A stretch of 64,000 nucleotides of DNA from Pararhizobium gei (lineage in GTDB: Bacteria; Pseudomonadota; Alphaproteobacteria; Rhizobiales; Rhizobiaceae): positions 1,514,001 through 1,578,000 of the forward strand of contig NZ_CP119409.1 in the NCBI RefSeq assembly GCF_029223885.1. Direction: 5' to 3'. Shown here piece after piece: positions 8,666 to 43,017 of this stretch. Below the pieces are notes generated by a model. The model saw nothing but the letters and a program-made list of their open reading frames with translations, made no database searches and was not told where the DNA came from. Positions within the stretch are counted from its first letter, which is position 1, and every line of letters starts with the position of its first letter. The position numbers and the translations under genes are program-made.

Positions 8666-8695
8666 TGCCGAAGCCGTGCCGCTGGCCTGACCTCG

Positions 8696-8766: not shown

Positions 8767-8869
8767 AGTGGTCATCGCCGACGGAGGGGAAGCACGCTCT
8801 GATCTTCGGACAATCGATCGGAATGCGGTGGTTCTCGTTTGCGCCGACCACCGTCCCTCCGGCGAAATA

Positions 8870-9277
8870 TCATTCGGCTTCGAAGGTCAGCGCCACGCCG
8901 TTCATGCAGTAGCGCAGCCCTGTCGGCGGCGGACCATCGGGGAAGACGTGGCCGAGATGGGCGTCGCAGTCGGCGCAGCGAATTTCGGTACGGCTCATGC
9001 CGTACGACGTATCCTGATGGCTGGTGATCGCATCCGCCGAGATCGGCTCGAAAAAGCTTGGCCAGCCTGTGCCGGAATTGAACTTCGCCTGCGAGCGATA
9101 GAGCGGCCGGTTGCAGCAGACGCAGTGATAGACGCCCGTCTTGCTCAGGTCGAAATCGGGGCTTGAAAACGCCCGTTCCGTGCCGTGCTGCCGGGTAATG
9201 CGGAACTGCTCCGGCGTCAGTTGCGCGCGCCACTCCTCTTCGGACTTAGACACTTTCAACGTGCTGTGATGATCCAT
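8870..9277 (-). CDS. msrB: Peptide-methionine (R)-S-oxide reductase MsrB
   Basis: The start at 9277 (MDHHSTLK) is chosen because AAAGGAGACC lies just upstream; a longer frame has no such site. The protein has the full MsrB set: zinc cysteines in CVCC and CADC, the [10 protein letters not shown] core, and the catalytic RYCMNG motif where Cys attacks methionine-R-sulfoxide. At about 135 residues it is a stand-alone MsrB without fused MsrA and without a signal peptide, so it is cytoplasmic. It repairs oxidised proteins using thioredoxin. It is monocistronic. Confidence 0.95.
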
Positions 9278-9486
9278 CGGGGTCTCCTTTATTTCAAGGG
9301 AATATAGGAACGATGTGCCGTCCCGGCAATGCATCGGGCATCCGCTTTATTGGCTTGAAATCAGGGGAGACTATCCGATTTTCCGCCGGAAAACTTGAGT
9401 TTGCCGCCGGCATGCCCTATCCCCGAAACCGGGCCTGCAATGTTGCATGCCCCTGAGCATTCCGTCCCGAGAGGAAACGCAGCAGC

Positions 9487-11850
9487 ATGGATCTCGCCGA
9501 TCTGACATTGGCGGCTCTTGGTCTTCCCTTTCTGGGGGCGATTGCCGCCCCGCTTCTGACGCGCGCTCTCGGGCATCGGGCGGCCTGGCTGCTGGCGCTT
9601 GTTCCAGCCGCTGTTTTCCTGCATTTCCTCGGCTTTTCAGGAGAGATTTCCGACGGCGGCGTGGTCACCGGCGGCTATGATTGGGTGCCGTCGCTCGATG
9701 TGCGTTTTTCCTGGCTTATCGACGGGCTGTCGCTCACCTTCATCCTGCTGATCTCCGGCATCGGCGCTCTGATCGTGCTCTATGCCGGCGGCTATCTGAA
9801 AGGCCATGCGCAGCAAGGCCGCTTCTTTTCGTTTCTGCTGATGTTCATGGGCTCGATGCTCGGGCTCGTTGCCTCCGACAGTTTCCTAATGCTCTTCGTC
9901 TTCTGGGAAATGACCTCGATCACCTCCTTCCTGCTGATCGGCTTCGACCATAGCCGCGAGGCGGCGCGGCGTGCGGCGCTGCAGGCGCTGGTGGTGACGG
10001 GCGGCGGCGGTCTTTTCCTGCTGGCCGGGCTGATCCTCCTGTGGAACATCTCCGGCGTCGCGGAGATGTCGCTGCTTGCCGGCTTCGGCCCGCAGGTGAA
10101 GGCCAGTCCTCTCTATCTGGCGGCGCTCGTTCTCGTGCTCGGCGGCGCCTTCACCAAATCGGCCCAGTTCCCGTTCCATTTTTGGCTGCCGAATGCCATG
10201 GAAGCGCCGACCCCGGTGTCTGCCTATCTTCATTCCGCAACCATGGTGAAGGCCGGCGTCTATCTCCTGATGCGGCTTAACCCGGTTCTGGGCGGCACGC
10301 CCGAATGGCAGACGATCCTGCCCGTTTTCGGGGCTGCGACGCTTGTGATCGGGGCGCTGCTCGCCGTGCGTCAGACCGACCTGAAGCTGATGCTCGCCTA
10401 TACCACGCTGTCGTCGCTCGGGCTTCTGGTCTTCCTCACAGGCTTTGGAGCCTCCTATGCGATCGAGGCGGCGGTTCTCTATCTCGTCGCCCATTCGCTG
10501 TTCAAGGGTGCGCTCTTCATGGTCGCCGGCATCATCGATCACGAGGCGGGGACCCGCGACATCACCCGGCTGGGCGGCCTGCGAACGGCCATGCCGCTGA
10601 CCTTTGCCATCGCGCTGGCTGCGGCGGTCTCGATGGGCGGGCTGCCACCCTTCGTCGGCTTTCTCGCGAAAGAGGAGATCTATGCCGCGCTGGCCGCCTT
10701 CGATCCGCGATCCCTAGCCTTCGCCATAATCGCCATCGCCGGCAATGCCCTGATGTTCGCCGTCGCCTTTGCCGTTGCCCTCAAACCCTTCCTCGGCGAC
10801 CGGCTGGAAACGCCGAGGCATGCCCATGAGGCGCCGCTGCTGCTCTGGCTCGGGCCGGCCGCACTGGCGCTGGCCGGGCTTGCCTGCGCCGTCCTTTCCG
10901 GCCCGTTCCACGCCTCCGTTTCTTCGCCCATGGCATCCGCGATTGCGGGAGAGACGCGGCAGGTCACGATCTCCCTGGTCCCGCATTTCGGCGTGCCGCT
11001 GGTTCTGTCGCTTCTTACGGTCCTGCTCGGCGTCGGAATTTACTTCGGGCTCGCCCGGATCCGGGGCGGCATCGCCCGCGTGCTCACCGGCATCGGCTGG
11101 GGGCCGGATCGCGGTTTCGACCAGGCGATGCGCGGCCTTCTCCGCCTGTCCACGGCCGTCACGCGAAGGCTGCAGAACGGCAGGCTCGACAGCTATATGA
11201 CCGTAACCTTCGCGCTTGTGGCTGCCGTGCTTCTGGTGCCGCTGTTCGCCTATGGCGAAATGCCGCTTGCGCCGGTCTTTCCGGCCGATGTCCCGCTCTA
11301 CGAAAGCGCCATTATGGCGATCGGGGTTGCCGGTCTCGTCGCCGTGCTTCTGGCCAAGGACCGGCTGACGGCGATCGTGTCGCTCGGCATCCAGGGGTTC
11401 GCAGTCGCGATGATCTTCCTGCTTTATGGTGCGCCGGACCTCTCCTTTACCCAGTTCATGATCGAGACGCTGGCCGTGGTCATATTGGCGCTGGTGATGA
11501 CGCGGCTGAAGCTGTCGCCGTCCGACCACCGTCCGTTGCGCCAGACGCTGCCGGATGCTGCGGTGGCGCTTGCCTGCGGGCTGGGGTTCACGCTGCTGCT
11601 GCTCAAGGTGACGCAAGGACCCTTCGACAGCGCGCTCACGGATTTCTTCCTCGCCTATTCCAAAACCATCGCCCATGGCGCCAATGTCGTGAACGTCATC
11701 ATCGTCGATTTCCGCGGCACCGACACGCTGGGAGAGATCGCCGTGGTCATGGTTGCCGGGCTCGCCATTCTGGCGCTGGTGCGTCTGCGGGCAGGGGTGC
11801 TGCGGCCGATGGCCGACAATGATCCGGATGCGGAGGAGCAAGCCAGATGA
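9487..11850 (+). CDS. mrpA: Mrp/Pha cation:proton antiporter subunit A
   Basis: A 787-residue, highly hydrophobic protein whose N-terminal two thirds match the NuoL/MrpA antiporter fold (motifs around [37 protein letters not shown] and [15 protein letters not shown]). The C-terminal third is the MrpA-specific extension. It opens a seven-gene operon in which every start overlaps or nearly touches the previous stop. The complex exchanges Na+ or K+ for protons across the inner membrane and serves pH and salt homeostasis; the rhizobial homologue is called PhaA. GAGAGG stands upstream of the ATG. Confidence 0.96.
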
Positions 11851-12266
11851 GGTCGCTGATCCTGCGCACTGCAGCCCCCTCCATCGTCGCGGTGATGCTG
11901 CTGTTTTCGATCTTCGTGCTTCTGCGCGGTCACAACGAGCCGGGCGGCGGCTTTATCGGCGGGCTGATCGCCGTGGCTGCCCTATCGATACAGGGCATTG
12001 CATTCGGGGTGGAGTCCGTGCGCCGCGCCGTCGTCTTTCATCCGATGGCGATCGCCGGGGCGGGTCTCCTGCTATCGACCTTGTCCGGACTGCTGTCTAT
12101 GCTCTTCCATGTTCCCTTCATGTCGGGATTGTGGGTCTATCCCGTCGTGCTCGGCGTCGAGGTTCCTCTGTCGAGTGTCATGAGCTTCGATATCGGCGTC
12201 TACCTCACCGTCGTCGGTGCCGTCACCTCGGTGGCGCTGACCCTGGAAGAGCGGGGGGAGGACTGA
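11847..12266 (+). CDS. mrpB: Mrp antiporter subunit B
   Basis: A 139-aa membrane protein with four hydrophobic segments. It begins with an ATGA overlap of the mrpA stop. The [12 protein letters not shown] segment is typical of MrpB. It is a separate gene here, although MrpA and MrpB are fused in some bacteria. It is needed for a complete Mrp complex. Confidence 0.93.
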
Positions 12267-12643
12267 TGGAACCGGTATTTGCTTTGTTGACCGGGATATT
12301 TTTCACGGTCGCCATCTATCTGCTGCTGTCGAAGATGATCATCCGCATGCTGCTCGGCGTCGCCATCCTCGGCAATGCCGTCAATCTTCTTTTGTTTACC
12401 AGCGGCCGCATCCTGCGCGAGGTGCCGCCGGTGATCGGTGCCGGGCTCGATGTGCCGGCCGGGCCGGTCGCCAATCCGCTGCCGCAGGCGCTGATCCTGA
12501 CGGCAATCGTCATTTCCTTCGCGTTCTTCGCTTTCCTGCTGGTCTTGTCCTGGCGCGCCTATGGCACGTTGAAAACCGACAATACCGATGAGATGCGTGT
12601 CGCCGAGCCGGACGACGCGACGCCGCCGCCGATGGGGTACTGA
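12266..12643 (+). CDS. mrpC: Mrp antiporter subunit C
   Basis: A NuoK-like 125-aa protein with three membrane helices and the conserved stretch MLLGVAILGNAVNLLLF. It shares one base with the mrpB stop (TGATG). The PLPQALILTAIVISFA helix carries the region equivalent to the conserved charged residues of NuoK. The C-terminal tail is polar and probably cytoplasmic. Confidence 0.94.
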   Translation: MEPVFALLTGIFFTVAIYLLLSKMIIRMLLGVAILGNAVNLLLFTSGRILREVPPVIGAGLDVPAGPVANPLPQALILTAIVISFAFFAFLLVLSWRAYGTLKTDNTDEMRVAEPDDATPPPMGY

Positions 12644-12646
12644 CGG

Positions 12647-14203
12647 ATGGCGTCGCCTTCGACTTCCGTTGATCTATCCGCAGCACTGGTTCTCGAGCCG
12701 GTCGCAGCCCTCGACTGGCTGGTGATCCTGCCGGTCGCCTGGTGCATTGCCATCGGCGCGATCCTGATGATGATCCGCTCGAAGACCCGGCTGCACGCGC
12801 CGATCGCCATTGCGGCCCTGTGCGGTCTCGCGGGGCTCGATGCCGGCTTGCTGTGGCATGTCTCGCAATCGGGACCGGTGACCATGGTCATGGGCCGCTG
12901 GCTGCCGCCCTTCGGCATCGCCTTCACGGTCGATCTCACAGGCGCGCTCTTTGCCCTGACGGCGTCCATCGTCGCCATTGCCGCGGCCGTCGCAGCGGCC
13001 GGCGAGATCGATGCGAGCGGCCGCCGCTACGGCTTTTACCCCTTTCTCATGCTTTTGATGGCGGGCGTCAGCGGCGCCTTCCTGACCGGCGACATCTTCA
13101 ACCTCTATGTCTGGTTCGAGGTGCTGCTGATCTCGTCCTTCGGACTTCTTGTCCTGGGCTCGGAACGCCAGCAGATCGACGGCGCGGTCAAATATGGCTT
13201 CCTCAATCTCGTCGCCACCACGCTGTTCCTGGTCGCCACCGGCTATCTCTACGGAATTTTCGGCACGCTCAACATGGCCGATATCGCCGCCAAGGCGCCG
13301 GCGCTTGCGGGCAGGGCGCCGCTGGTCACGCTGGTGGCGCTCTTCCTGTTCGCCTTTGCCATGAAGGCGGCCGCATTTCCGGTGAATTTCTGGCTGCCCG
13401 CCTCCTACCACACGCCGCGCATCGTCGTCTCCGCCCTGTTTGCCGGGTTGCTGACCAAGGTCGGGATCTACGCGCTGATCCGCACCGGCGTCATGCTGTT
13501 TCCAGTCCAAAGGCAGGAACTGGGTGCCGTCATGGCACTGGTGGCGATCCTGACCATGCTCAGCGGCGCGCTCGGCGCGCTGGCACAGGCTGATATCCGC
13601 CGCATCTTCGGCTATCTCGTCATTTCCGGCATCGGATCCATGCTGGCCGGCATCGCCATCGGCGGGGCTGACGGGATCGGCGGCGTGATCTTCTATGCCC
13701 TTCATTCCATGGTGGTGATGACGGCGCTCTATCTCGCGGCGGGTTTTGCCGCGCGCCTTGGCGGCAGTGTCTCTCTTCACGCTCTGGGCGGGCTTTACAC
13801 GCGCCACGGGCTGTTTGCCGGCCTGTCGTTGGTGCTGTTCTTTTCAGTCTCCGGCCTGCCGCCTTTTTCCGGATTCTGGCCGAAGGTGATGCTGGTGAAG
13901 GCGGCGCTCGATAGCGGTGCGGGATGGCTGGCGGGTGCTCTGCTGCTGACCGGCTTCCTGACGATGATCGCCACCGGCCGGCTGTTCCTCCTCGCCTACT
14001 GGCGTCCTGCTCCGGCGCAAGCGAGCCCTTTGATGCCCTTGCCATGGACGGACCTGCTGCCCCTGGCGATGCTGACAGCGCTGAGCGTTGTGATCGGGCT
14101 CTTTCCGGAGAGCCTGCTCAGTCTCGTGCAAGCTGCCGCGCAAACGCTGATCGCGCCCTCCGCCTATCTGCAATCCGTCTTTCCGGCCGGGAGTGCGCCA
14201 TGA
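12647..14203 (+). CDS. mrpD: Mrp antiporter subunit D
   Basis: A 518-aa NuoN/NuoM-like antiporter subunit with the family motifs [35 protein letters not shown] and [10 protein letters not shown]. The conserved Glu in the FEVLL helix and the Lys in [10 protein letters not shown] are the presumed proton-path residues. It starts three bases after mrpC ends. With MrpA it forms the ion-translocating core. Confidence 0.95.
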
Positions 14204-14676
14204 TCCTCATCATACCGGCCGTTTTGCTGACACTTGTCTGGGCCGCCCTGACCGGCAGCGTCACGCCGCACAATCTGGCGCTTGGATTCCTGCTTTCCGC
14301 ATTGTCGCTGTTCGTGGTGCGCGCCCATATCCCCAAGGTCCGGCATCGTGTCCGCCTGGGCAAGCTTGCCCTGCTTGCCGGCCTGTTCGTCAGGGAGTTG
14401 TGGGTTTCGGCCTTCAGGGTCGCCATCCTCGTTCTGCGGCCGGACATGCGGCTGAGGCCGGGCATCTTCGCCTATCCGCTCACCGTGACGCGCGATTTCG
14501 AAATCACGCTGCTCGCCAATCTTATCACGCTGACGCCCGGCACGCTTTCTGTCGATGTCTCGCCGGATCGCCGGCTGCTCTATGTCCATGCGCTGGACTG
14601 CCGCGACCCGGCGGCCGAGAAACGCGCGATCGCAACCGGCTTCGAGCGCCGCATCAGGGAGGCTTTTCCGCTATGA
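14200..14676 (+). CDS. mrpE: Mrp antiporter subunit E
   Basis: A 158-aa protein with two to three N-terminal membrane segments and a soluble C-terminal part. [14 protein letters not shown] is the signature of the MrpE family. The start overlaps the mrpD stop as ATGA. MrpE is needed for efficient assembly of the complex in studied species. Confidence 0.93.
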
Positions 14677-32808: not shown

Positions 32809-33405
32809 ATGGATGATCTGGATTTCGATCCGGAGACCTTTGGCCTTTGGCCGAAGGCGCCGGTTTATGATGGGTTGCGGCCGTGGCGGGCGGGCAGTGA
32901 ACGTCTGCAAGATCTGGCGGCCGGGGCCATACTCGACAGGAAAGCCGAGGCCTCGCCGCAGGAGAACCTGCGGGACATGCTGAACGGCATGACCAAGGAA
33001 CTGCGCGAGCAGATGCAGCAGTTTCAGCGATTGCGCAAGCTGGCCGACGAAAAGGCGGTCGAGGCTGGCGAGGAGATCGACCGCAAGCTCGTTCAGGCCG
33101 ATGCAAAGGCGAGCATCGAAGCCATGTCGGTGATCGTGCGGACGCTGGAAAAGATCGACAGCCTGCAGAGAACGATCGCCCATGACCGGCAGATGCTGGC
33201 CGAACAGGATTTCGACGAGGCGGCCTATGAAAAGCTTCAAGCCGAATTCGACGCCAGAATTGAAGCACGGGCCGATGAATTGGCGCGTGAGCGCGGCAGG
33301 CAGGCACCGGGACTTGCTGCGGCGGATGGTGCAGGGTGTGCGGATGCCGCAGGATGTGTCCCAGGCGGCGGCCCCGAACCGCCCTCATCAGCAGAACCGG
33401 CCTGA
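32809..33405 (+). CDS. GTA/prophage-type packaging protein (terminase small-subunit position)
   Basis: A 198-aa protein with an N-terminal DDLDFDPETFGLWP motif and a long helical middle (residues 50-160). It lies directly before the large terminase gene, the place of the small packaging gene in RcGTA-like clusters of Rhizobiales. The last 35 residues turn abruptly into Gly/Ala/Pro-rich sequence, while the +1 frame at the same place reads a plausible helical piece (RDLLRRMVQGVRMPQ), so a frameshift near 33,290 is possible. Confidence 0.6.
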   Translation: MDDLDFDPETFGLWPKAPVYDGLRPWRAGSERLQDLAAGAILDRKAEASPQENLRDMLNGMTKELREQMQQFQRLRKLADEKAVEAGEEIDRKLVQADAKASIEAMSVIVRTLEKIDSLQRTIAHDRQMLAEQDFDEAAYEKLQAEFDARIEARADELARERGRQAPGLAAADGAGCADAAGCVPGGGPEPPSSAEPA

Positions 33406-33499
33406 ACTGAACCGGCCTGAACCGAACCGCCTTGCGCGGCGGCGGGAAGAAGGGCTCCTGCGCAGGAGCGCAAAGATCAAGACATCTCTCGAAAGGGGA

Positions 33500-34206
33500 A
33501 TGGCCGGGGTGACCGAAATGCACGACGCCACCCTTCGGCTGCTGACCAAACTTAACAGCAGGGCCGGGACGACACGCTCCACCGCAGAGGCCGTCGATCT
33601 CGCCGATCCGCCGACTTCGAGGATTAAGGCCATTTCGTCCGGTGCCGCGCCTGATACCGGTGCGGACCTCTATTCCCTTTCCAGGGCGCGCGAAACCTTG
33701 CGACTGCTGCGCGCATGGCCAAACACGGGCCGCGCCGAGCAGATGGCGCCTCAGGGCGACTGGCGGGTCTGGCTTCTGATGGGCGGTCGCGGATCGGGCA
33801 AGACCCGGGCCGGGGCCGAATGGGTACAGGAGCTGGCGGGTGGCAGGACGGCTCGGCCGGGCCTCAGAATTGCTTTGCTGGCCGAGACGCTGGGCGATGC
33901 CCGCGAAGTGATGATCGACGGCGTGTCCGGCATCTGCCGGATCGCGCGGGAAAACCGGCCCGATTTCGAAACGTCGCGACGCCGGCTGGTCTGGCCGAAC
34001 GGGACGGTGGCGCAGATTTTTTCCTCCGAGGACCCCGAAAGCCTGCGCGGTCCGCAATTCGACTATGCCTGGTGCGACGAACTGGGAAAATGGAAACACG
34101 GGCAGGAGACATGGGACATGCTGCAATTTGCGCTGAGGCTGGGCGAGCGGCCGCAGGCGCTGGTGACGACGACGCCGCGGCCGGTGCCTGTGCTGAAGGC
34201 GCTGAT
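33500..34206 (+). pseudogene. Large terminase subunit (terL), N-terminal part, interrupted
   Basis: The ATPase half of a GTA/HK97-type TerL is intact: Walker A GGRGSGKTRAGAEW, Walker B FDYAWCDELGKW, and the coupling region LVTTTPRPVPVLKALI. The homology stops exactly where Mu-type element A begins at 34,207. The nuclease domain is missing; its first part (NAGNLAPGFLDAM...TRLG) is found 8.7 kb away at 42,901-42,969. The start is uncertain (33,500 or 33,518). The truncated product would not package DNA. Confidence 0.8.
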
Positions 34207-34254
34207 TGTGGCGCGGCGGCACCTTTTGGACAGATCGGCACTAGCTTTTAGACA
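34207..34254. repeat. Low-coordinate (phage right) end of element A
   Basis: Begins TGTGG. Two transposase-site-like copies, ACCTTTTGGACA (34221-34232) and AGCTTTTAGACA (34243-34254), are exactly 22 bases apart, the spacing of Mu R1 and R2. The first 34 bases recur exactly at 42,970-43,003. Confidence 0.7.
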
Positions 34255-34353
34255 GCGAAATGCGCTCCACTGGCAAACCTTAACGTTTTTACTGACGCGC
34301 CGCTGGTGGGTTTGAGTGGCATTAAAAGTAAAACCAGATAGTAACTCTGGCGA

Positions 34354-35100
34354 CTAGGCGACCTTCCGGCCCTGCGCCTTCGCCGCTCTTCGCTCTTTCC
34401 GTGAACCGAGAACGGCGACATTCTGGAATAGCCCGAAGGGATTTATGCGCTCGCCTATCGCGTCATTCCACGTTCTGATGGTCTCGACCTTCGCGCCGTT
34501 TCGGTCAATGACAGTCAAGTCACACTGTCCGCCGACGCCGAAGAACATGTCGCCGACACAAGCGCCATCGCGCCTGCCGGGTCGCTTGCGCATGATCTCC
34601 ATAAAGTCCGCGCCCACACGGCGGATATAGTCGGTCAATGTTTCAGCACTGCGCTTCGGAGAGACCAAGGTCGCGTCGGCGGTCGAAAACGACGGTCCAA
34701 AACTTTGAATTTCAGGCAGTGCCCGCACCTCAAAACGCTTCTCGCCATTCGTCTGGAAATAGCAATGCTGTCCGCCGTTTTTCGCATCCCAGGCCGCGAT
34801 GACGAACTGTGTAGCGTTGTCACCAGTGAATAAATCTGGCTGTTCGGAGAGATGATGCACCACACCGTGCAGACCGGCCAGCGTGTCACTCACGCCAATC
34901 TCATCGGCCATATGGCAGAGACGCTCTGCCACGACATTGCCAACCGCATCGCTGCCGCGCGATGTCACCGCAAATGACACCTGTTTCGAGGTCGTTACCT
35001 TGCAGCCAATCCGGCGAACGGTTCCATCGTCATCGTATGTCGCGCCGTCCGTCAGCAGCATGGCGACATCACCAAAGGCCATCGATATAATACCGCTCAT
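34354..35100 (-). CDS. Unknown protein, last gene of the element A late operon
   Basis: A 248-aa protein whose start overlaps the tape-measure-like stop as ATGA, so it is translationally coupled. The first 60 residues (MAFGDVAMLLTDGATYDD, then KQVSFAVTSRGSD) read like alternating beta strands, loosely recalling Ntn-hydrolase/proteasome-type starts, but this is weak. The basic tail ends AAKAQGRKVA. No counterpart exists in the part of prophage B that is visible. It sits at the place where Mu-like phages keep end-of-operon accessory genes. Confidence 0.55.
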   Translation of the reverse strand: MSGIISMAFGDVAMLLTDGATYDDDGTVRRIGCKVTTSKQVSFAVTSRGSDAVGNVVAERLCHMADEIGVSDTLAGLHGVVHHLSEQPDLFTGDNATQFVIAAWDAKNGGQHCYFQTNGEKRFEVRALPEIQSFGPSFSTADATLVSPKRSAETLTDYIRRVGADFMEIMRKRPGRRDGACVGDMFFGVGGQCDLTVIDRNGAKVETIRTWNDAIGERINPFGLFQNVAVLGSRKERRAAKAQGRKVA

Positions 35101-36932
35101 TGATCGTTTCCTTCCACGATTACGAATGTCCCGCCGTCGCCATAGATCGCGTTCTTGATCGGGTTCTTGATGGCCAGCGTGTTCAGTTCGCCCAAAATAT
35201 TCTTGCCGATATCCTTGAACGTGCTCTCGATGTCCTCAAACCCGTTCAGCGCGGAATCAGAGAGGTCGTCGATGGCGCTACGCCCTACATCGCGGATTTC
35301 CTCCCAAACCTTGACCTGTTCGCGCAAACTCTCATTCGAGCGGAGAATGCTGGCCTCATATGAGGAGAGATCGACAGGCAGTCCGGCATTGCGGAGTTGC
35401 GAGGCAATGCGCTGCTCGGGCTCAGGACGCCCAATCTGCTCGCGCTCAAACTGCGCATCCGCGCCGATCTTCATCCGGGCTGCTTGGCTTGCGGCATTGG
35501 CATAGGCCTCGCCCAGGCGCTCGATTTCGCGGCGTTGTTCGGGCGATGCCCGGTGCCCCTTGTTTTGGACCTCTTGCAGCAAATCAAGCTCGAACCGCAG
35601 CCGTTGCGCGGCGATGCCGGTAGCGCCGGACGCCGATGCCTCAAGCCGCATTTGCGCAATGCGTTCTTGCGCCGACTGGATGACATCGCGGTATGACCGG
35701 CCGGTGGCCTCGTTAGATTTTACCTCACCGGGCAAACCCTCCATTTCGATGTTCGGTCGCGCTTCCGGAACCGGCCCGATTATTGGCAGATCACCCTTGC
35801 CGTAAGGGTCGGCGCTGAAGGTCTTGCTCACGGCTTCGGTGAGCTTCCTCGCGCCGATCTCGGTCAATTCGAGGTTGGCGCGAAGCTCTTTGATCTTGTC
35901 AGTCAGAGGGTTTCGGTCCAAAAGATCGCGGGTCTTGTCGAGACCGGTCATGTCGTCGGGCAATGCGACGAAACGGCCCACGCGCTCATCGCCATAGCCT
36001 GTCCGCCCCAAGTCAAGGCGGGTGTTGACGGTAGCGGAAAGGTCCGATTTCAGCTGGTGTTGCGCTATCGCCAGTTCGGATCGTTGAACCTCAATCGAGG
36101 CCTGAAGCCGCTTTTGCTCCAATTCGAGAAGCGATTGTTTTGCCCGATATTCGCGCTCGCTGTTGGCGATAATGATGGAGGTTGCGGCCGAGCTCGCGTC
36201 GGCACCGGCGCGGATCGAGGAGTTATACGTCTCTTGCAGTGAGGTCAGGTCGCCCATCAAGCCTTGCAGCGTTCCAAGCGGGGAGGCCTGTTCGGCCAGC
36301 GCACGCGTGGTTTCGCTCACGGCAAGGCCCGCCTCAACTGAATAGGATGCCAGAAGCTTGTAGGCCCCGTATCCCGCCGTGACCGCAACGGCGAGCGGCC
36401 CGACAACTCTCGCCGCTGCACCAGCAATCGACATAAAGTCTTTCAATGCTGCATTGACGCCGCCGCTGCCAGCGTAAATTTGAAGCAGCTGCGGCCCCTG
36501 CTGTGCCGCGATCATACCGAGAGGCATGCCACCAGCCAAGCTCTGGCCGATGTCGAAATACTGATACCCCGCATTCTGGCGTCTGTACTGCGCCTCGTTG
36601 TCGTTGGCGGCTGGCATGGGGCCGTTTGGCACCGGATACGAGGACGGCGACGAATATGGCGATGAAGCGGGAACGGAGGTTGGCAACGAACTTGGCCGCG
36701 CAAGGGTCGCCTGATTGATACGCTCACGGACTGCCCGTTCCTGCCTCGCCGCCTCCGCTGCGTTACGTGAGGCGTCGGCATCCCGTTCAAGGGCGGTTGC
36801 GTGTTTTCCTAACGCCGCAGTCGCTTCCGTCACCTCGGCCGTGACACCATCCATTTCCCGCTTGACGATTTCCGCCGCTGGTTTGACGGCGGAAGCGTCG
36901 GCGCGGAACACCATGTCGAGATTGACGGTCAT
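35097..36932 (-). CDS. Short tape-measure-like protein of element A
   Basis: The first 85 residues (MTVNLDMVFRADASAVKPAA...) are about three quarters identical to those of prophage B's tape measure. Hydrophobic mid-segment, long coiled coils and the closing piece (EEIRDVGRSAIDDL ... NPIKNAIYGD) also match B, but internal stretches and B's last 390 residues, including the lysozyme-like domain, are absent: 611 against 1413 residues. The tape measure sets tail length in tailed phages, so a particle using this one would be short-tailed. The frame is intact and coupled to the next gene, which speaks against decay. Confidence 0.75.
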   Translation of the reverse strand: MTVNLDMVFRADASAVKPAAEIVKREMDGVTAEVTEATAALGKHATALERDADASRNAAEAARQERAVRERINQATLARPSSLPTSVPASSPYSSPSSYPVPNGPMPAANDNEAQYRRQNAGYQYFDIGQSLAGGMPLGMIAAQQGPQLLQIYAGSGGVNAALKDFMSIAGAAARVVGPLAVAVTAGYGAYKLLASYSVEAGLAVSETTRALAEQASPLGTLQGLMGDLTSLQETYNSSIRAGADASSAATSIIIANSEREYRAKQSLLELEQKRLQASIEVQRSELAIAQHQLKSDLSATVNTRLDLGRTGYGDERVGRFVALPDDMTGLDKTRDLLDRNPLTDKIKELRANLELTEIGARKLTEAVSKTFSADPYGKGDLPIIGPVPEARPNIEMEGLPGEVKSNEATGRSYRDVIQSAQERIAQMRLEASASGATGIAAQRLRFELDLLQEVQNKGHRASPEQRREIERLGEAYANAASQAARMKIGADAQFEREQIGRPEPEQRIASQLRNAGLPVDLSSYEASILRSNESLREQVKVWEEIRDVGRSAIDDLSDSALNGFEDIESTFKDIGKNILGELNTLAIKNPIKNAIYGDGGTFVIVEGNDQ

Positions 36933-36942
36933 GTTTTAAACC

Positions 36943-37860
36943 TCAAAACTTCCGGGCGGAGCTGGTCCGGTTGACATCCGTCCGCTGGCCGGGATCGCGG
37001 CCCGCCATGTCCAGCGCCGCCGCAAAGCTGATGTTCTCCCGCGCTTCCAACTCCCTCGCACGACGATAGAGTTCGGACTTGCCCTCATCCACTTCATAGC
37101 CTTCCGGCACGGCGATCTTAGCAACCGGCAAGTCACCCGCTAAAGGTCCATCGCCAATATTCATCGCCCCGAAGGAAACCACCTTTGGCTGGCGCGCCAG
37201 ATAGGACAGGAACCAACCGCGCCGCGTTTCCGGCCGGCCGTCCGCAAAACTTAACGTCTCGCTTTCGTCGAGGCTGGCGGCAAACGAGAGGATTTCACTC
37301 TTGAACACCGGCAGGACGCGGCCATCATTGATGAGGCCTTCCAGTTCCAAGGCGTTCAGCCTCTGCTTGAGCGCCTTGTTCTCATCTTGCACGAAGGCAA
37401 AATCCAGCACGTCCTGGGCGAAAGAAACCGTCCCTTCGACACCCCCCGAAAACTCCACCGGCTTGAGACCTGCGACTGCGGGCGCTGCCGCACCGAGAAA
37501 GCCGATATGCTTGATATACATCTCGCCGGGCTTCGGGTTCGCGGGGCTGTTCGGCAGGAACAGGGACATGGACACCCGCGTATAACGCTTCGCCTTCACC
37601 ATGTCGGCAAACTCGGCAACCGTGTCCTTCAGCATCGCCTTGAGCTTGCCGCCTTCGACATAGAGGCGCTCGACCCAGCCATAGGCGGGCGCGTCCATTG
37701 CCGGATGTCCGATCACGATAGGCGCTGGCGCTGTTTCGGGATCGTAGCTGCTGGCGATCTTCTGGAGCTCAAGTTCCGTGATCGTTGTCGTCTGGCCTTC
37801 CACAGGCGAAAATGTTCCCGCCCGAAAGACCTCAATGGGGCCGTAGCTTCCTGTTTTCAT
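36943..37860 (-). CDS. Mu gpI-like prohead protease/scaffold of element A
   Basis: A 305-aa protein with the N-terminal FRAGTFSPVEGQTTTITELE, GHPAMDAPAYGWVERLYVEG and IKHIGFLGAAAPAVAGLK segments shared with the protease of prophage B and with Mu-like gpI. A coiled-coil scaffold-like half follows (DENKALKQRLNALELEG). It lies 3 bases after the capsid gene, which is opposite to the usual protease-before-capsid order. Confidence 0.8.
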   Translation of the reverse strand: MKTGSYGPIEVFRAGTFSPVEGQTTTITELELQKIASSYDPETAPAPIVIGHPAMDAPAYGWVERLYVEGGKLKAMLKDTVAEFADMVKAKRYTRVSMSLFLPNSPANPKPGEMYIKHIGFLGAAAPAVAGLKPVEFSGGVEGTVSFAQDVLDFAFVQDENKALKQRLNALELEGLINDGRVLPVFKSEILSFAASLDESETLSFADGRPETRRGWFLSYLARQPKVVSFGAMNIGDGPLAGDLPVAKIAVPEGYEVDEGKSELYRRARELEARENISFAAALDMAGRDPGQRTDVNRTSSARKF

Positions 37861-37863
37861 GGA

Positions 37864-38814
37864 TCAAGCCGCCGCCGCGCCGGCGTTCTGCCACAGAAAG
37901 CCCGACGCGATGCCGGTCAACACAGGCTCCCGCTCATAGGTCACCCCATAGAGGAAAGACCGGGTGTCGCCGTCCCAGCGTTCCTGTTCAACGAACGGAT
38001 GGCCCTTCAGGGTGTAGGTGTAGCCGTAGGACGGCTGTTCCATTCCCATATCGGTTTTCGGAACATAGGCCAGCACGGCATCCAAACCCCACGCCTCGAC
38101 AAACGGTGAATTGTCGTCGGGACCGTTGATATAGGCTGCCGTTCCGACCGCAAGGTCTTCGAGCTCGAATAGTCCGGCCAGCATCTTGGACGTGATCGAT
38201 TCAGCGCTGACATATTTGAAGCGGTCAACGATAGTCGGATGACCCTTCAAGGCGCTGAATACATCGCTGCCGATCACCATCGTGTTGGGGTTCAGACCGC
38301 ACGAGGTGCGGATTTTCTTCTTGGCAAGTTCGACATCGGCAATCGGCGTACTGTTTGCCCCCGTCCACCGCGCCGCGCCGACAAGCGCCGTTTTGTTCTC
38401 CGCCGCATAGTTCGCGGTATTGCGGGCAATCAGCGCCTGTTCGATTTCCAGCGAAAGGGTCAGGACATCCATGACGTTGCTGACGGACCGTCTGGAAAGG
38501 TCGATGCCGGGAACCACGGCTGCATCGTCCATATGCTCACGTGGCACCACGGCGTCCAGCGCCTGTTGGGAAAGCGCGAACGGCTTGCCCTTGTAGCCGA
38601 ACTGGACGCGACCGACCGAAGCGCCAGGCGCACGCTTCGTGGCGTAGTGCCGGAAGCTTTCCTTGCCGAACTCGATGACCTGTCCGCCACGGGCAGGAAC
38701 GTCAACGGCTGGAAACAGCATATGGCCCACGCGTTGCGCATGGCGGTAGCCCTGCGCAACTCCGGTCAAGACCGGATCGATAACGCGGGCACCTCTGGTA
38801 TTGAGGATAGTCAT
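37864..38814 (-). CDS. Major capsid protein E-type, element A copy
   Basis: A 316-aa capsid protein homologous to that of prophage B (about 45% by eye): conserved DPVLTGVAQGYR, FGKESFRHYATKRAPG, ALVGAARWTGANS and PSYGYTYTLKGHP. It belongs to the phage major capsid protein E family. It directly follows the Mor-like gene and heads a capsid-protease-tape-measure operon. The divergence from B shows that it is an old, separately evolving copy and not a recent duplication. Confidence 0.85.
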   Translation of the reverse strand: MTILNTRGARVIDPVLTGVAQGYRHAQRVGHMLFPAVDVPARGGQVIEFGKESFRHYATKRAPGASVGRVQFGYKGKPFALSQQALDAVVPREHMDDAAVVPGIDLSRRSVSNVMDVLTLSLEIEQALIARNTANYAAENKTALVGAARWTGANSTPIADVELAKKKIRTSCGLNPNTMVIGSDVFSALKGHPTIVDRFKYVSAESITSKMLAGLFELEDLAVGTAAYINGPDDNSPFVEAWGLDAVLAYVPKTDMGMEQPSYGYTYTLKGHPFVEQERWDGDTRSFLYGVTYEREPVLTGIASGFLWQNAGAAAA

Positions 38815-38840
38815 GGTTTTCCCTTCTGTGGAAACTGGAT

Positions 38841-39554
38841 TTAAGCGCCGCTGACGCGGTTTTCGTTGGCGGGATGAGGCAAGGTGCCGGAATTTGCGGC
38901 AAGGCCCGTTAGAGGGCCGTTAGAATTGGCAGGATACACCGGTGTGGGCTTCAACAGCGCTTCAAGACTGCCGCTCTTGCGATGTTCATCTATCACCAGC
39001 GCGAATTCGCTCTCACTGACGCTGAGGCGTCGAGCCCCTTGATACGGTGTCATTTCTTTTCGGCGGACCATCCCCGCGACCGTCTCGAAGCGGTTAAGCC
39101 GGGCTGGATCGATGTGAAAATAAACGACACGATTTCCGCCAGTTTTTTTGTTTTTGAAGATGCCTTGCAAGCCAAGCGTTTTCAGGAGTGTGCGAAGCCA
39201 TCTGTTGCTGATGCCGAGGTGTTGCGCCACTTCGGCTGACGTTTTGCCTTCGTTTGCGGCTGCGCGAATATACTCGGCGCGTCCTGCATTATGGTCGATT
39301 GGCAAAGCCGGTATGTAGACTTGCTCACATGCGAAAGTTTCGGATATAGCCTTCGCAGCGTCCCATCCCACGGCTTTCGTCAACCAATGATCGTCGCTCA
39401 GCCGACGCGGGTCAGGAAATCTTGTTTCCAGACCGCCGCACTCCCTTTGCAATTTTTCAAAGGCCTCGGCTCCCACAAGTTCAAACAAATGCGAGGTCGA
39501 GGTATCGGGATTGGAAGAAACGATCTGTCTGCTTTTGATGCCAATCTGCTGCAT
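38841..39554 (-). CDS. Mor-like transcription activator of element A
   Basis: The start at 39554 has GGGGA upstream. Residues 20-125 fit the Mu Mor/C activator layout: a helical dimerisation part (FELVGAEAFEKLQRECGG), the QVYIPALP beta strand, then AEYIRAAANEGKTSAEVAQH and LGISNRWLRTLLKTLG as helix-turn-helix. Mor switches on late genes in Mu. A 110-residue extension with a second possible DNA-binding part follows, which is unusual. It lies just before the capsid operon it probably controls. Confidence 0.65.
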   Translation of the reverse strand: MQQIGIKSRQIVSSNPDTSTSHLFELVGAEAFEKLQRECGGLETRFPDPRRLSDDHWLTKAVGWDAAKAISETFACEQVYIPALPIDHNAGRAEYIRAAANEGKTSAEVAQHLGISNRWLRTLLKTLGLQGIFKNKKTGGNRVVYFHIDPARLNRFETVAGMVRRKEMTPYQGARRLSVSESEFALVIDEHRKSGSLEALLKPTPVYPANSNGPLTGLAANSGTLPHPANENRVSGA

Positions 39555-39701
39555 GTCTAATCCCCGGAAAAGCCACCTGTAAGGAAGTAGGTTCCGGCGC
39601 CCAATGACGCGACCGGAACTCACTTCCGCGCGCGCGCACGCGCACACGCGACGATGGTGCGCCAATCACGGCATTCCCTTCGCCACACGGTTGTTGTGAT
39701 C

Positions 39702-39747
39702 GGCATGACGGTCGGGGATTTTCATACTTTCACCCGGCCGTCATGCC
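39702..39747. promoter_or_regulatory. Inverted repeat in the divergent promoter region
   Basis: GGCATGACGG (39702-39711) and CCGTCATGCC (39738-39747) are perfect complements 26 bases apart. They lie between the leftward Mor-like gene and the rightward C4/regulator operon and could be a regulator site for both. Confidence 0.5.
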
Positions 39748-39817
39748 ACTTGTAAAATCACCAAATCAGCGTTAGAAATTGATCACGGGCGTAGAAACCC
39801 ATTACCTACGGTGCTCA

Positions 39818-39857
39818 AGCACCACTGAGACCGGCAACGGTTACATGGTGCTTTTTT
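39818..39857 (+). terminator. Attenuator-like hairpin before the C4-like RNA
   Basis: AGCACCA (39818-39824) pairs with TGGTGCT (39846-39852), followed by a six-T run. The loop contains a second small hairpin ACCG-GCAA-CGGT with a GNRA-type loop. It could end or attenuate leader transcription before the structured RNA. Confidence 0.65.
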
Positions 39858-39890
39858 GTGTCCGGTTTCCGGGCAGGTCGTATTCGTGCG

Positions 39891-39993
39891 GCCGGGAGGG
39901 CATGGCATATGTCCAGGGCGAAAGCCTAAAGGTCATGCTGCCGTCCGTAGGCGGTTTCTAACTCCCGGCTCTGTCGCGATGGTCGCACAGAGC
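39891..39993 (+). ncRNA. C4-like antisense RNA
   Basis: Stem P1 GCCGGGAG (39891-39898) pairs perfectly with CTCCCGGC (39962-39969). Inside, GGCATG/CATGCT closes an arm ending in GGC-GAAA-GCC, and a third arm GCC-GTCCGTA-GGC exposes the antisense loop: a three-way junction as in the C4 RNAs of phages P1 and P7. CCGTAGG and GGTTTCTA (39945-39960) are exact complements of CCTACGG and TAGAAACC upstream (39792-39811), and TCCGTAGGC and TTTCTAA match GCCTACGGA and TTAGAAA at 40008-40028, over the ribosome site of the next gene. A second hairpin (39968-39993) follows. Confidence 0.7.
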
Positions 39994-40036
39994 TTGCCAA
40001 AAGCGCCTTAGAAAGCGCGGCCTACGGAGACCGACC

Positions 40037-40597
40037 ATGAACACCTACAATCACAGCTATGAAGACATGCGCGACGTCATGGATGCGCTGGAAAATACCG
40101 TCCATGCCCTGAAGGGATTTTCTACCCTTCTCAATATTTCGCTGCAGAATGCTGGCGGCGATCTGCAACATGACACCACAGGCATTTCGATCCTGCTCAA
40201 TCACCAAATCAGCGATCTGGACGATATCCGGCGCGGCCTTCAAGTCGAAGTCAACGCGATCCGCAAAAGCAAGTTGGTCCTTACAAGCCCGCGTCACGCT
40301 GCCTCGGTCTACGGCCTTCCTGTAGCAACCGTCATCGGAATAACCCGCATGATGACCGGCGTCGGCCTCGAGAGCGAAGGTGACACGTCCCCCGCCGCCG
40401 AAGAGGAAACCGCAACCAACCCGAAGCAACTCCGCGACGATATCATTGCCGAACAGCTCAAGGCAGGAGTCAGCGAGGCTGAAATATCGCAGGCGATTGG
40501 CGTTCGCAAAACAGCGATCGAGCGCGTGAAGCGGAAGTTGGAGGCTGACGAACTGCCAGACGGACAATCACCCGATCAAACAGCCGTCAACGGCTGA
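40037..40597 (+). CDS. Putative regulator under C4-RNA control
   Basis: A 186-aa protein with a helical N-terminal half and a C-terminal helix-turn-helix-like piece (AEQLKAGVSEAEISQAIGVR, then KTAIERVKRKL). Its GGAGA ribosome site lies within the box complementary to the C4-like RNA, so translation should be blocked when that RNA is present. In P1/P7 the gene in this position leads to the antirepressor. By analogy this may be an antirepressor or early activator; no family was recognised. Confidence 0.55.
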   Translation: MNTYNHSYEDMRDVMDALENTVHALKGFSTLLNISLQNAGGDLQHDTTGISILLNHQISDLDDIRRGLQVEVNAIRKSKLVLTSPRHAASVYGLPVATVIGITRMMTGVGLESEGDTSPAAEEETATNPKQLRDDIIAEQLKAGVSEAEISQAIGVRKTAIERVKRKLEADELPDGQSPDQTAVNG

Positions 40598-40654
40598 TCT
40601 CACAAGGCGCGGTCCCCGGATCGCGCCTTTCCTTTTTGCAAATCAGGTGAACCC

Positions 40655-41230
40655 ATGTTTGGTAACGATAGTCTTGAGCTCACAGTGAATGTGTCCGCCT
40701 CGGAATGGGCCTACGCCCAAAGGCGTCTGACCTATCTTGAAACCCTCCTCCTGCGGATCGTCCGCGACAAGGCCCATATCCAAGAATGGTACGACGCCGC
40801 CGAACTGGCGGCGCTCCGTCTCCCCGGCCTGCCAGACAGCAAGACAGGGATCACGCGCAAGGCGACCATGGGCAACTGGCGGCGGCGCACTTTGAAGGAC
40901 CGCAAGGGCAGGCGCTACGTCTACCACGCATCCAGCTTCCCGGCCCGCGCTTTCGATGCCCTGATAGCCCGGCTTCTCGACTTGCCGCCCGTGGATGCCG
41001 ATATGGATGGCGTCTTTGCCCTGCCGGTGGAAACCCCGCCGCAACATCCGCCAATGCCGGAAAACACCGCACCGGTTTGGGTGCTTCCCCTGATGCGCCT
41101 CATGAAGGGCGAGGCGAACGGCAACCTTGGCAGGGCATGGCAGGCCCTGCCTGCGCATCTCCCAAAGGGCATTGCTTTGCCGTCTGTCCGCGAGGCAGCA
41201 GAAATCCTCGTTAATCTGGGCTTGGCCTAG
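40655..41230 (+). CDS. Mu-type (MuA/repressor-like) DNA-binding protein without transposase domain
   Basis: AGGTGA lies 7 bases before the ATG. Residues 45-105 carry the HTH_Tnp_Mu_1-type domain found at the N-terminus of MuA and Mu c repressor: LPGLPDSKTGITRKATMGNW, then GRRYVYHASSFP. The rest (106-191) has no DDE catalytic core. The protein may be a repressor that binds operators and ends in competition with a transposase, or a truncated transposase. It is the only visible Mu-end-binding candidate in element A. Confidence 0.65.
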   Translation: MFGNDSLELTVNVSASEWAYAQRRLTYLETLLLRIVRDKAHIQEWYDAAELAALRLPGLPDSKTGITRKATMGNWRRRTLKDRKGRRYVYHASSFPARAFDALIARLLDLPPVDADMDGVFALPVETPPQHPPMPENTAPVWVLPLMRLMKGEANGNLGRAWQALPAHLPKGIALPSVREAAEILVNLGLA

Positions 41231-41272
41231 CCGCCCATCAATTCCCCCACGTCCCAAGGTTCAAAATCAAGT

Positions 41273-41448
41273 GGCAATTTTTGCCGTTTGATTTCGGCCG
41301 TTGGTTTTTGCCGTTTGATCGCCTCATCACCGGTGGCAGACGGCAAATTTTGCCAACTGGCAAAAATTGCCGCTTGGCAAAATCAAAGGCGCAAAAATTG
41401 CACGTTTGATCCGTTGGTCAGCATGAAACAGCAACGGCAAATTTTGCC
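41273..41448. promoter_or_regulatory. Cluster of GGCAA-N3-TTGCC palindromes
   Basis: Four near-identical 13-base palindromes occur: GGCAATTTTTGCC (41273), GGCAAATTTTGCC (41342), GGCAAAAATTGCC (41359) and GGCAAATTTTGCC (41436). TTTTTGCCGTTTGAT is repeated directly at 41278 and 41305, and there are further half-sites near 41375 and 41392. This lies about 1.45 kb from the element's high-coordinate end. In Mu a similar operator/enhancer cluster is bound by the same type of DNA-binding domain. It may also be iteron-like. Confidence 0.6.
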
Positions 41449-41459
41449 ATTGCACGGCA

Positions 41460-41496
41460 GGTTTATGCAAACGAAAAAATTTCGTTTGCATAAACC
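41460..41496. terminator. Perfect 17-bp hairpin between convergent genes
   Basis: GGTTTATGCAAACGAAA (41460-41476) and TTTCGTTTGCATAAACC (41480-41496) are exact complements with a 3-base loop. It stands directly after the leftward tail-completion gene and after the rightward DNA-binding gene, and probably ends transcription from both sides. Confidence 0.7.
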
Positions 41497-41504
41497 ACTA
41501 CTGC

Positions 41505-42092
41505 TTAGCTCAAATCGGGATTCTCCGACAACAGCCACTCTTCCGCTATACCGACGATGATCTTTTCATCGTCCTCGGATGCTCCAAGATAGGGCCGGGC
41601 GGGGATATGGATGACGTGAGCCTTGACGGTTACGTCGCGCGCAAAGTTGCTCTTCGATTTCCGGCGAAACCTCTGATCCAGCGTATCGGTCTTGGCGTCA
41701 TAGCGCTGGTAGATCGTCTGCTGCCGTTCCTCCTTCTTGATCTCGCCGCCAAGCTGGTGAATAGCGGCGTGCGGCACCGGCGTTCCGAGCCGCGCCTCCT
41801 CGTTGGTCGCGACCATGTTGACGGACCCGGCCAGACGGCCACGGGCTCGCAGGATCGTTATCGGCACCTGGCCCAGTTTTTCGCGCTTGGCAATTGTCTT
41901 CGGCATGAGGCGCTTCCAGGGAACGCCCTCCGGGCTGCGCTCAAGCCGGAAGTTGTCGGCCGTCGAATTCAGAAGATGCTCGCCCACATTTTTGTAGAAG
42001 CCCTGCCGGTTCGACATACTGGCAACCAACCGGTTGACCGCATCGCGAGCTTCCTTGCTTTTCAGTTCCAAAGTGTAAACGATTGGGCTCAT
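41505..42092 (-). CDS. Phage virion morphogenesis (tail completion, Mu gpG/P2 S-like), element A copy
   Basis: A 195-aa protein about 90% identical by eye to the copy in prophage B at 63,132-63,719: PIVYTLELKS, PITILRARGRLAGS, TPVPHAAIHQLGGEIKK and ARPYLGAS are all shared. The near-identity, far above that of the capsid pair, implies recent exchange between the two elements. The ribosome site is poor and the gene is separated from the late operon by a reversed block. An AT-rich TATACTATATTAA stretch lies just upstream. Confidence 0.85.
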   Translation of the reverse strand: MSPIVYTLELKSKEARDAVNRLVASMSNRQGFYKNVGEHLLNSTADNFRLERSPEGVPWKRLMPKTIAKREKLGQVPITILRARGRLAGSVNMVATNEEARLGTPVPHAAIHQLGGEIKKEERQQTIYQRYDAKTDTLDQRFRRKSKSNFARDVTVKAHVIHIPARPYLGASEDDEKIIVGIAEEWLLSENPDLS

Positions 42093-42900
42093 ACCGTGAG
42101 ATATACTATATTAAACCAAAAAACACGATCTACTAATTTCGGACCTTAACCGGGCCGAACGGCTAGAAATTCAATAAATTATCATTTAGATACAGTATAT
42201 TAACCGAGGTCCGAAATCCTCGTTTAAGGTCCGCAACGTTTTCGGACCTTAAAACATCCGCCGTCGCTTTACTGCCAAGGATGCGTATCAGTTCGATGCC
42301 AGACCTTAACGCCGCATACTAGACGCGGTTCGGCCAGAATTATGAAGTCTGCACAATGGGTTAGGCAAGGTCGGGCATTTTCGGCCAAGGTAGGGCAAAA
42401 TGCCCGACCTTCCATCGGCAGCGCATCACATTGAATCATCAGACGCAAACCGTGAAAAGTATTCGCCAGCCAATACTGCGTTCCCACCTCGGAGTCTCCG
42501 AGCATACGGCAACGTGATAATTTAAATAAACATTTTCAATAGCTTGTCTTAAGTGGGAACTTTGCCTTTGAGGTGGGAAGAGATTTCCCACCTCAAACAG
42601 CCGCAATTGTTCGGCATGCGGCCCTCGGCTCGTACCGTCCGGCCTCTCTTGCTCACAAACCTCGAAAAAAGTTCTTTCTGATCAAATGCTTGATGTCTGC
42701 GCAGCCTTGCGCGATTTTTGCTGCCAAAATGCGCGATTTGTCCAGAAGGTCGCGCAGAATTCGCTCACTTTCATCGCCCTTTTTGCATTTTCCCGCGAGA
42801 TTATTTTCTACTCTTTTTTATTTTATCGCGATGAAATCGTTAGTGTTTTCGTCTTGCAGGCTGACAATGGTCCGTGTCCAGAAGGTAACACCCCCCTACA
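42093..42900. promoter_or_regulatory. Palindrome-rich non-coding end region of element A
   Basis: About 800 bases without a credible gene. Several different palindrome families occur: TTAAGGTCCG-type sites (near 42,150-42,260), AAGGTCGGGCATTTT/AAAATGCCCGACCTT (42367-42381/42397-42411), and TTTGAGGTGGGAA/TTCCCACCTCAAA (42567-42579/42585-42597). Transposase-site-like TGTCCAGAAGGT occurs at 42739-42750 and 42875-42886. This is the expected place for Mu left-end sites, operators and early promoters. Confidence 0.5.
42875..42900. repeat. High-coordinate (phage left) end of element A
   Basis: On the minus strand the end reads TGTAGGGGGGTGTT, then ACCTTCTGGACA. At the other end of the element the same site also follows 14 bases after the terminal TG. 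The element therefore ends with ...CA at 42,900. Confidence 0.6.
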
Positions 42901-42969
42901 CAATGCAGGGAATCTGGCGCCGGGTTTTCTCGACGCCATGGCCGGGCGCTACGGCGGCACGCGCCTCGG
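42901..42969 (+). pseudogene. 69-bp terL stub between two Mu-type insertions
   Basis: The frame reads NAGNLAPGFLDAMAGRYGGT and then RLG, the conserved start of the TerL linker/nuclease region, and continues the fragment that ends at 34,206 after a gap of about 14 codons. It stops exactly at the TGTGG end of prophage B. It proves that both elements entered the same gene. Confidence 0.75.
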
Positions 42970-43017
42970 TGTGGCGCGGCGGCACCTTTTGGACAGATCG
43001 GCATCAGCTTCTGGACG
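42970..43017. repeat. Right end of prophage B
   Basis: The first 34 bases equal those of element A's end at 34,207. ACCTTTTGGACA (42984-42995) and AGCTTCTGGACG (43006-43017) are 22 bases apart. The flanking host bases are CTCGG, which should recur as the 5-bp duplication after the other end. Confidence 0.7.

Follow-up and report, generated by a model that had tools for sequence, protein, structure and literature searches.

The window analysed here is a 64,000-nucleotide stretch of the chromosome of Pararhizobium gei, a member of the Rhizobiaceae. It contains an 8694 bp element, referred to below as element A (positions 34207-42900), and next to it a Mu-like prophage, referred to as B. An earlier reading of the sequence alone had proposed that A is a Mu-type phage satellite with its own capsid set. 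Our analysis supports this proposal: elements of the same kind recur in other genomes, and helper-like ends matching those of the satellites were found in seven of seven genomes.

Genes and ends of element A

The genes and sites of A are listed by position in the window.

34207-34261, no strand: late-side Mu-type end with two repeats 22 bp apart; its initial 26 nt are the same as B's late end
34354-35100, minus strand: 248-amino-acid (aa) protein with a predicted Ntn-hydrolase/proteasome-subunit-like fold (structure model and Foldseek)
35097-36932, minus strand: short tape-measure protein, 611 aa (Pfam TMP_2, 1e-9)
36943-37860, minus strand: head maturation protease, 305 aa (phrog_976, 2e-70), missing a segment of its phage homologues
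37864-38814, minus strand: major capsid protein, 316 aa, of the satellite clade (phrog_1005, 8e-90)
38841-39665, minus strand: Mor-like late activator (phrog_836, 7e-17)
40037-40597, plus strand: 186-aa helical protein with a C-terminal helix-turn-helix (HTH) (own profile)
40655-41230, plus strand: 191-aa protein with a Mu DNA-binding domain (Pfam HTH_Tnp_Mu_1, 1.6e-9)
41266-41496, no strand: cluster of TTTTGCC repeats and palindromes, with 30 nt identical to B 80568-80597 (numbering of the joined region)
41505-42092, minus strand: tail-completion protein (Phage_tail_S, 1.5e-30); DNA 86% identical to B's
42100-42700, no strand: non-coding, palindrome-bearing stretch with AAGGTCCGAAA sites common to B's early end
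42728-42900, no strand: early-side Mu-type end, with stretches of 78% and 94% identity to B's early end

The profile matches bear out the sequence-only reading in its list of intact capsid, protease, short tape-measure and tail-completion genes, a Mor-like activator and a Mu-type DNA-binding protein. It had also noted the absence of transposase, portal and terminase genes. We found none of these, and no integrase gene, in the eight frames of A that were scanned with profiles, and the remaining frames are all at most 240 aa long (the portal and large terminase, TerL, of B have 462 and 551 aa). A MuA-type transposase is represented in A by its DNA-binding domain alone, within the 191-aa protein, whose N-terminal part is common to MuA, and the full head, packaging and tail gene set of a Mu-like phage is not present. 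As expected of satellites, which leave essential virion genes to a helper, neither portal nor TerL was found in A or in a second element of the same genome, C (described below).

The late genes, said earlier to be start-stop coupled, are coupled or nearly so: the tape-measure and 248-aa genes overlap by 4 nt, and there are gaps of 3 nt between capsid and protease and 10 nt between protease and tape measure. The 186-aa and 191-aa genes are divergent from the late genes, and the tail-completion gene lies near the early end. Capsid precedes protease in A, the reverse of the protease-capsid order of B, a difference that had been recognized before. A proposed C4-like RNA was dropped, because an Rfam search of A matched no family at E values up to 0.1. 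Of the proposed operator clusters, the inverted repeats are present and two kinds of site, the 30-nt stretch and the AAGGTCCGAAA sites, are shared with B; their role as operators is predicted. A search of phage records for DNA closely related to A matched nothing.

The tape measure of A is short compared with the 1413 aa of B's, to which it is 69% identical over 96 aa and 29% over 422 aa. The model of the 248-aa protein is of modest confidence (pLDDT 59, pTM 0.61); proteasome entries made up all of the best 50 listed Foldseek matches, with a top E value of 7e-8. Two satellites on viral contigs (L180 and L182) have a homologue of this protein after the protease. The structure model of the 186-aa protein reached a pTM of 0.37, and PADLOC matched none of the 248-, 186- and 191-aa proteins. 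A long match to the 191-aa profile was also seen in another genome (G1329), on small contigs.

The outermost letters of A are TGTGGCGCGG at 34207 on the left and CCCCCCTACA closing at 42900 on the right; read on the opposite strand, the right end starts TGTAGGGGGG. Repeats resembling transposase sites begin 16 nt inside both ends. On the left they lie at 34223 and 34245, with the 22-bp spacing reported by the sequence-only reading, and B has equivalents with the same spacing at 42986 and 43008. On the right they lie at 42884 and 42748 in A and at 84562 and 84427 in B (joined-region numbering). Ends with sites spaced in this way are those of a Mu-like (transposable) phage. Across 55 nt, the left ends of the two elements are 89% identical, and the letters of A's two ends match B's at 26/26 and 24/26 positions. 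As a check on chance, the end motif was counted in 92 kb: 7 of its 10 occurrences sit at the four A/B ends.

Transposase-free relatives of A in other genomes

A search for the same gene set in other genomes, which had been suggested as a check, did not refute the proposal: it turned up elements of 6-9 kb that have Mu-type ends but lack a whole transposase. Six elements, 6.0-8.7 kb long, share A's core and could be delimited; five lie in as many other genomes and one on a viral contig. The core consists of a Mu-HTH regulator of the 191-aa type and divergent Mor, capsid and protease genes, with no whole transposase, and all six elements have Mu-type ends and a perfect 5-bp target-site duplication (TSD). 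They are listed here together with a seventh element, L176.

L066: 6329 bp, TSD AAATC
L069: 6551 bp, TSD GCCCC
L075: 6042 bp, TSD TGTAA
L177 (satellite in genome G511): 8723 bp, TSD GCATA
L181: 8285 bp, TSD GCAGA
L325 (satellite in genome G1127): 7844 bp, TSD GAATC
L176: 3456-12960, 9505 bp, TSD CCAGA; Mu-HTH regulator, Mor, Mu gpT-type capsid, protease and tape measure

L176 sits in a host cytochrome c peroxidase gene, and its joined flanks form a 350-aa frame. The same test of five other elements gave no spanning frame for two, short frames (87 and 139 aa) for two, and 300 aa for L067. When ends and TSD were scored in a common scan, the seven transposase-free elements reached 20-23, compared with 15-19 for 60 control windows taken from phage loci. 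The TSDs at A's relatives (there is none at A) suggest that these transposase-free elements transposed as units. Ends could not be paired with a TSD at L068, L071, L072, L073, L130, L137, L086, L077, L092, L187 and L198; a single end was recognized at L070, and L194 has a weak end pair.

In the G511 satellite, L177, positions 2586-3476 encode a 296-aa protein with a sub-threshold match to the AbiJ N-terminal domain, possibly an anti-phage cargo.

Ends of the proposed satellites match those of Mu-like elements in the same genome

We made a pattern from the ends of each satellite and scanned its own genome, allowing 1 to 3 mismatches. Seven genomes contain A or a delimited transposase-free element, and in all of them the pattern also found ends of another, Mu-like element. 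A few matches were strays: two in G297 and one each in G000 (the genome of A) and G1127. The reversed pattern, used as a control, had two matches in G1127 and one each in G000 and G298. For the first four genomes, all eight satellite ends (8/8, with one tie) were best matched by an end from their own genome, and the true pairing scored 194, compared with 182 for the runner-up of the 24 assignments.

A contiguous partner phage with MuA, TerL and portal is present in three genomes: G000 (prophage B), G511 (38,979 bp, TSD GCATG) and G1127 (39,825 bp, TSD TGCGG). In G298, one of the matching ends was found on a contig that carries MuA and MuB and is equal in length to the contig with TerL and portal (L094). 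In G535 there are matching ends on two contigs, one of which has portal and MuA.

In four of the nine cases with a known end, less than 100 bp separate the satellite from the end of a Mu-like phage, or the satellite is nested just within that end. The distances are 69 bp (A/B), 42 bp (G1127) and 92 bp (viral contig L179), and the G297 satellite is nested 30 bp inside the phage. Satellite and phage are some 600 kb apart in G511 and on different contigs in G298, G299 and G535. In the two pairs that were compared, the tail-completion gene closely resembles that of the helper (86% identity of DNA for A/B; 87% of protein in G1127). This is not so for the capsid proteins, which are 50% (A/B) and 44% (G1127) identical to those of the helper. 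The matching ends indirectly support transposition in trans by the helper.

Gene order, capsid lineage and protease

Among 297 genomes of the family, 20 had a capsid match. Nine loci outside the source genome were labelled: three had the satellite order, with capsid before protease (G118, G162 and G117), one was fragmentary (G209) and five were phage-like. In 385 genomes of the class there were matches in 22, and among 25 labelled loci, A's excluded, satellite order was found in C's alone. We also scanned a collection of species genomes with patterns from a five-capsid alignment, which detect only capsids bearing one of two peptide patterns, and obtained 72 loci. These were labelled with profiles built in this analysis and counted by gene order. 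Eleven of the 72 had capsid before protease and no label for terL, portal or MuF, and in 42 the protease came first and one or more of these labels was present; 10 had phage order with no such label in reach, and 9 were unclassed. The best 80 of 335 viral-contig loci comprised 5 with satellite order, 38 with phage order, 24 with phage order but unlabelled, and 13 unclassed. Insufficient sequence partly explains the phage-order loci without a terL, portal or MuF label (10 + 24). Within the 72-locus set, the profile of the 186-aa protein marks frames solely in satellite loci, whether or not MuA is present.

In a 71-row capsid tree, for which the bootstrap had not settled, 12 of 13 satellite-order rows fell into one clade with support of 100/97, L086 lying outside. 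In a quick tree of 151 rows (131 of them different), 18 of 18 satellite rows formed a clade, supported at 77 by look-up and at 99 in a group table that omits ungrouped rows. The L325 capsid was in neither tree. There are no phages in the satellite capsid clade; this and the recurring core are what is expected of satellites that form a lineage distinct from phages. The phages seen here have another gene order, another capsid clade and other regulator genes, so A-type elements are not derived from them by simple deletion, which agrees with the sequence-only reading of A.

The protease is 289-312 aa long in 15 satellites, compared with a median of 381 aa (286-484) in 101 phage-order loci; this comparison is uneven, which slightly lowers our confidence in the interpretation, in that satellite starts were moved past the capsid stop and phage frames were taken whole. 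The proteases of A, C and L177 have 305, 355 and 319 aa. In an alignment of 17 satellite and 25 phage rows (B plus the first 24 of 350-420 aa), the satellites miss internal segments 184-237, 256-268 and 291-301 (B numbering).

An element with the same capsid protein

Element C lies 1.3 Mb from A in the same genome (G000:C1 2863421-2872343; L045 and L046). It is 8923 bp long, has a 4-bp TSD (CAAC), and encodes two CI-repressor-HTH proteins, a MuA-type transposase (669 aa), a MuB-type protein, a phrog_286 protein, Mor, capsid and protease. Profile labelling found no portal, terminase or tail gene in C, and a search of 50,697 phage records with its transposase matched nothing at E 1e-5. The ends of C, with TTTTACAG sites, are unlike A's.

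The capsid proteins of A and C are identical at 316/316 residues. Their genes differ at 22 of 951 nt and all 22 differences are synonymous, although 75% of random changes would be nonsynonymous (P about 4e-14). High identity is limited to the capsid gene and the end of Mor and falls off beyond, so we read the similarity as a recent exchange under selection.

Insertion site

A and B both lie in one terL gene, a match to which was found in 25 of 26 genomes of the genus. The neighbouring features are:

33182-34206, plus strand: frame containing the 5' portion of the disrupted terL (Terminase_6N, 9.5e-27; Pfam match from about 33776; start provisional)
42901-42969, plus strand: 69-bp piece of terL separating A and B; the gene is uninterrupted in relatives
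42970-64000, no strand: putative helper B, a Mu-like prophage with MuA, MuB, TerL, portal and MuF and the TSD CTCGG, extending past the end of the window

B is 41,609 bp long and also encodes protease, capsid and tape measure. In a related genome, the end of a Mu-like phage (G234:C37:85301) lies in the same stretch of terL. The positions of A, B (window 34206-42970) and this phage end all fall within ~110 bp of terL, a possible insertion hot spot.

Interpretation and alternatives

We consider it likely, with a probability of roughly 0.8, that A belongs to a family of satellites that live on transposable phages and encode a capsid, and that it is one of the members without a transposase. The case for the family is independent of A's own copy. 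We infer that such satellites use a helper by packaging their DNA in their own heads with the helper's portal, motor and tail. A would be kept silent by its own Mu-HTH regulator acting with the operator-like sites that it shares with B. Upon induction of B, the MuA and MuB of B would act in trans on the ends of A, which would be copied by replicative transposition. The Mor-like activator of A would then activate the genes for capsid, protease, tape measure and tail completion, and A's own heads would be built, with portal, packaging motor, tail tube and tip supplied by B. The tail-completion protein, which is close to B's, would connect the satellite head with the helper tail. The shorter protease suggests that the satellite heads are probably smaller.

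In a broader form, we think there is probably a class of satellites living on transposable phages, which make their own shells and take portal, motor and tail from the helper. One type would have its own MuA and MuB; the other, without a transposase, would be moved in trans via ends that track those of the helper. There would be at least three origins by capsid type: the clade of A and C, a clade of Halomonadaceae and Alcaligenaceae elements with a tape-measure-like gene (described below), and the Mu gpT type.

Several observations weigh against this interpretation. The flanks of A (CTGAT/CAATG) form no TSD, and A replaces 42 bp of the terL found in relatives, so this copy may have been rearranged, or formed or changed in place. 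A satellite-order locus was found in at least 4 of the 297 family genomes (weaker matches being unlabelled), and from the few such loci in our surveys the elements look rare. L066 and L177 match the core less neatly: the MuA profile matches a 251-aa frame of L066 (153 bits), which at one third of the length of MuA is too short for a whole transposase, and the L177 counterpart of the 186-aa protein is just 17% identical. The protease of the G1127 satellite (L325 13961-15625) reads as two adjacent frames and may be broken or misread. Not each genome now has an intact partner phage; the one in G297 (UBA1943) bears neither a TerL nor a portal label, and the partner elements in G299 are decayed. 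We rejected tail shortening as a general rule, because the tape measures of L070 (1018 aa) and L179 (at least 1096 aa) are long.

Decayed Mu-like elements in G299 (C18 and C61) retain ends and TSD. That on C18 (L138, G299:C18:23442-30252) is a 6.8-kb Mu-like phage derivative with early genes only and an intact TSD, GCACG, and the same genome carries a 16.5-kb decayed phage with a TSD. Ends and TSD are insufficient to define a satellite; core, gene order and capsid clade make the distinction. The existence of such decayed elements agrees with the idea that A is itself a rearranged, decaying remnant, left when two adjacent Mu-type prophages in terL recombined and most of their genes were deleted together with 42 bp of terL. 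The absence of a TSD at A and the missing 42 bp fit this history, as do the position of B only 69 bp away and the Mu-like end in the same terL stretch of a related genome. We regard it as improbable, because the main frames of A are intact, the same core occurs elsewhere with clean TSDs, gene order and capsid clade are unlike those of phages, and the differences between the A and C capsid genes are all synonymous.

The capsid and protease could also serve chiefly to poison assembly of helper heads and so protect the cell, with packaging of the element itself secondary or absent. Their presence without portal or terminase, the phage segment missing from the protease and the AbiJ-like match in one satellite would suit such a function. 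This seems to us an unlikely account, since the elements' own ends, TSDs, and tape-measure, tail-completion and TerS-like genes suit propagation better, and PADLOC had no match for the three A proteins. It is very improbable that the transposase of C, rather than that of B, moves A. C is in the same genome, has MuA and MuB and encodes the identical capsid protein, but its ends, with TTTTACAG sites and a 4-bp TSD, differ from those of A, which match B's at 26/26 and 24/26.

Comparison with known satellites

In the accessible review text, the satellite types named are P4-like, PICI (phage-inducible chromosomal island), cfPICI (capsid-forming PICI), PLE, PICMI, VEIME and tycheposon, and helpers providing a transposase are mentioned for miniature inverted-repeat transposable elements (MITEs) only. 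Like A, cf-PICIs are described in the accessible parts of PMC11389934 and PMC10690885 as helper-dependent satellites with their own capsid and head protease and their own capsid clades. They differ in encoding portal, connectors, both terminase subunits and HNH, and in needing only tails (PMC10690885). No portal or TerL was found in A-type elements, which have Mu-type ends rather than integrase-based insertion; L075 and L177 have only a TerS-like gene, not the portal and both terminase subunits of cf-PICIs. The Streptomyces satellites MulchRoom and MiniFlayer likewise carry head genes, but they follow virulent phages and encode a terminase and a portal themselves; the accessible part of the source gives them terminal repeats, and one of them a tyrosine-type lysogeny module, and does not mention Mu-type ends (PMC10690885).

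MITEs resemble A-type elements in having no transposase and being moved in trans by that of a helper, according to the accessible review text (PMC11389934). They are ~300 nt long with no protein genes, whereas A-type elements have 6-9.5 kb and virion genes. According to the accessible text of PMC10111431, helper-embedded PICIs are also joined physically to a helper prophage; among A-type elements one is nested 30 bp inside a phage and three lie <100 bp away. Helper-embedded PICIs differ in entering late genes of the helper by means of an integrase. Related capsids occur in the Mu-like phages RR1-B and RcapMu (46% and 45% identity; records of 37 and 39 kb).

Among the papers listed in searches of the open-licence literature, a body that leaves out subscription papers and most preprints, we found no report of satellites of Mu-like phages, as judged by titles and abstract openings. 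We read A and its relatives as a new family, capsid-encoding satellites of transposable phages. If this is true, satellite ends that imitate the sites of a helper transposase would make these elements a large, protein-coding counterpart of MITEs that produces virion parts, and sequence would suffice to identify the helper directly through the ends. Head resizing and head-tail compatibility become open to direct test, given the short protease and a tail-completion gene that resembles the helper's.

Other elements

Region D of the same genome (G000:C1 about 538000-547000; L048 and L049) has HNH, an HK97-type capsid, a tape measure split over two frames and a 251-aa homologue of A's 248-aa protein, with an insertion-sequence-type transposase alongside. 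D may be a satellite or a remnant.

A second capsid lineage has Mor followed by capsid, with no protease recognized. It comprises L077, L080 and L092 and seven viral contigs, some of which are copies of each other, and the capsids of these loci form their own clade (10/10, branch support 94 in the 151-row tree). L077, L080 and L092 are compact Mu-type elements of Halomonadaceae and Alcaligenaceae and have no portal or terminase label. The frame after the capsid has 658 aa in L077 and 610 aa in L080, where it matches a tape measure. L080 also encodes MuA- and MuB-type genes. Its putative ends (1619-14611; 12,993 bp, 6-bp repeat AGCGAT) score at control level only, and the block common to L080 and L092 ends on the same base as a putative end of L080.

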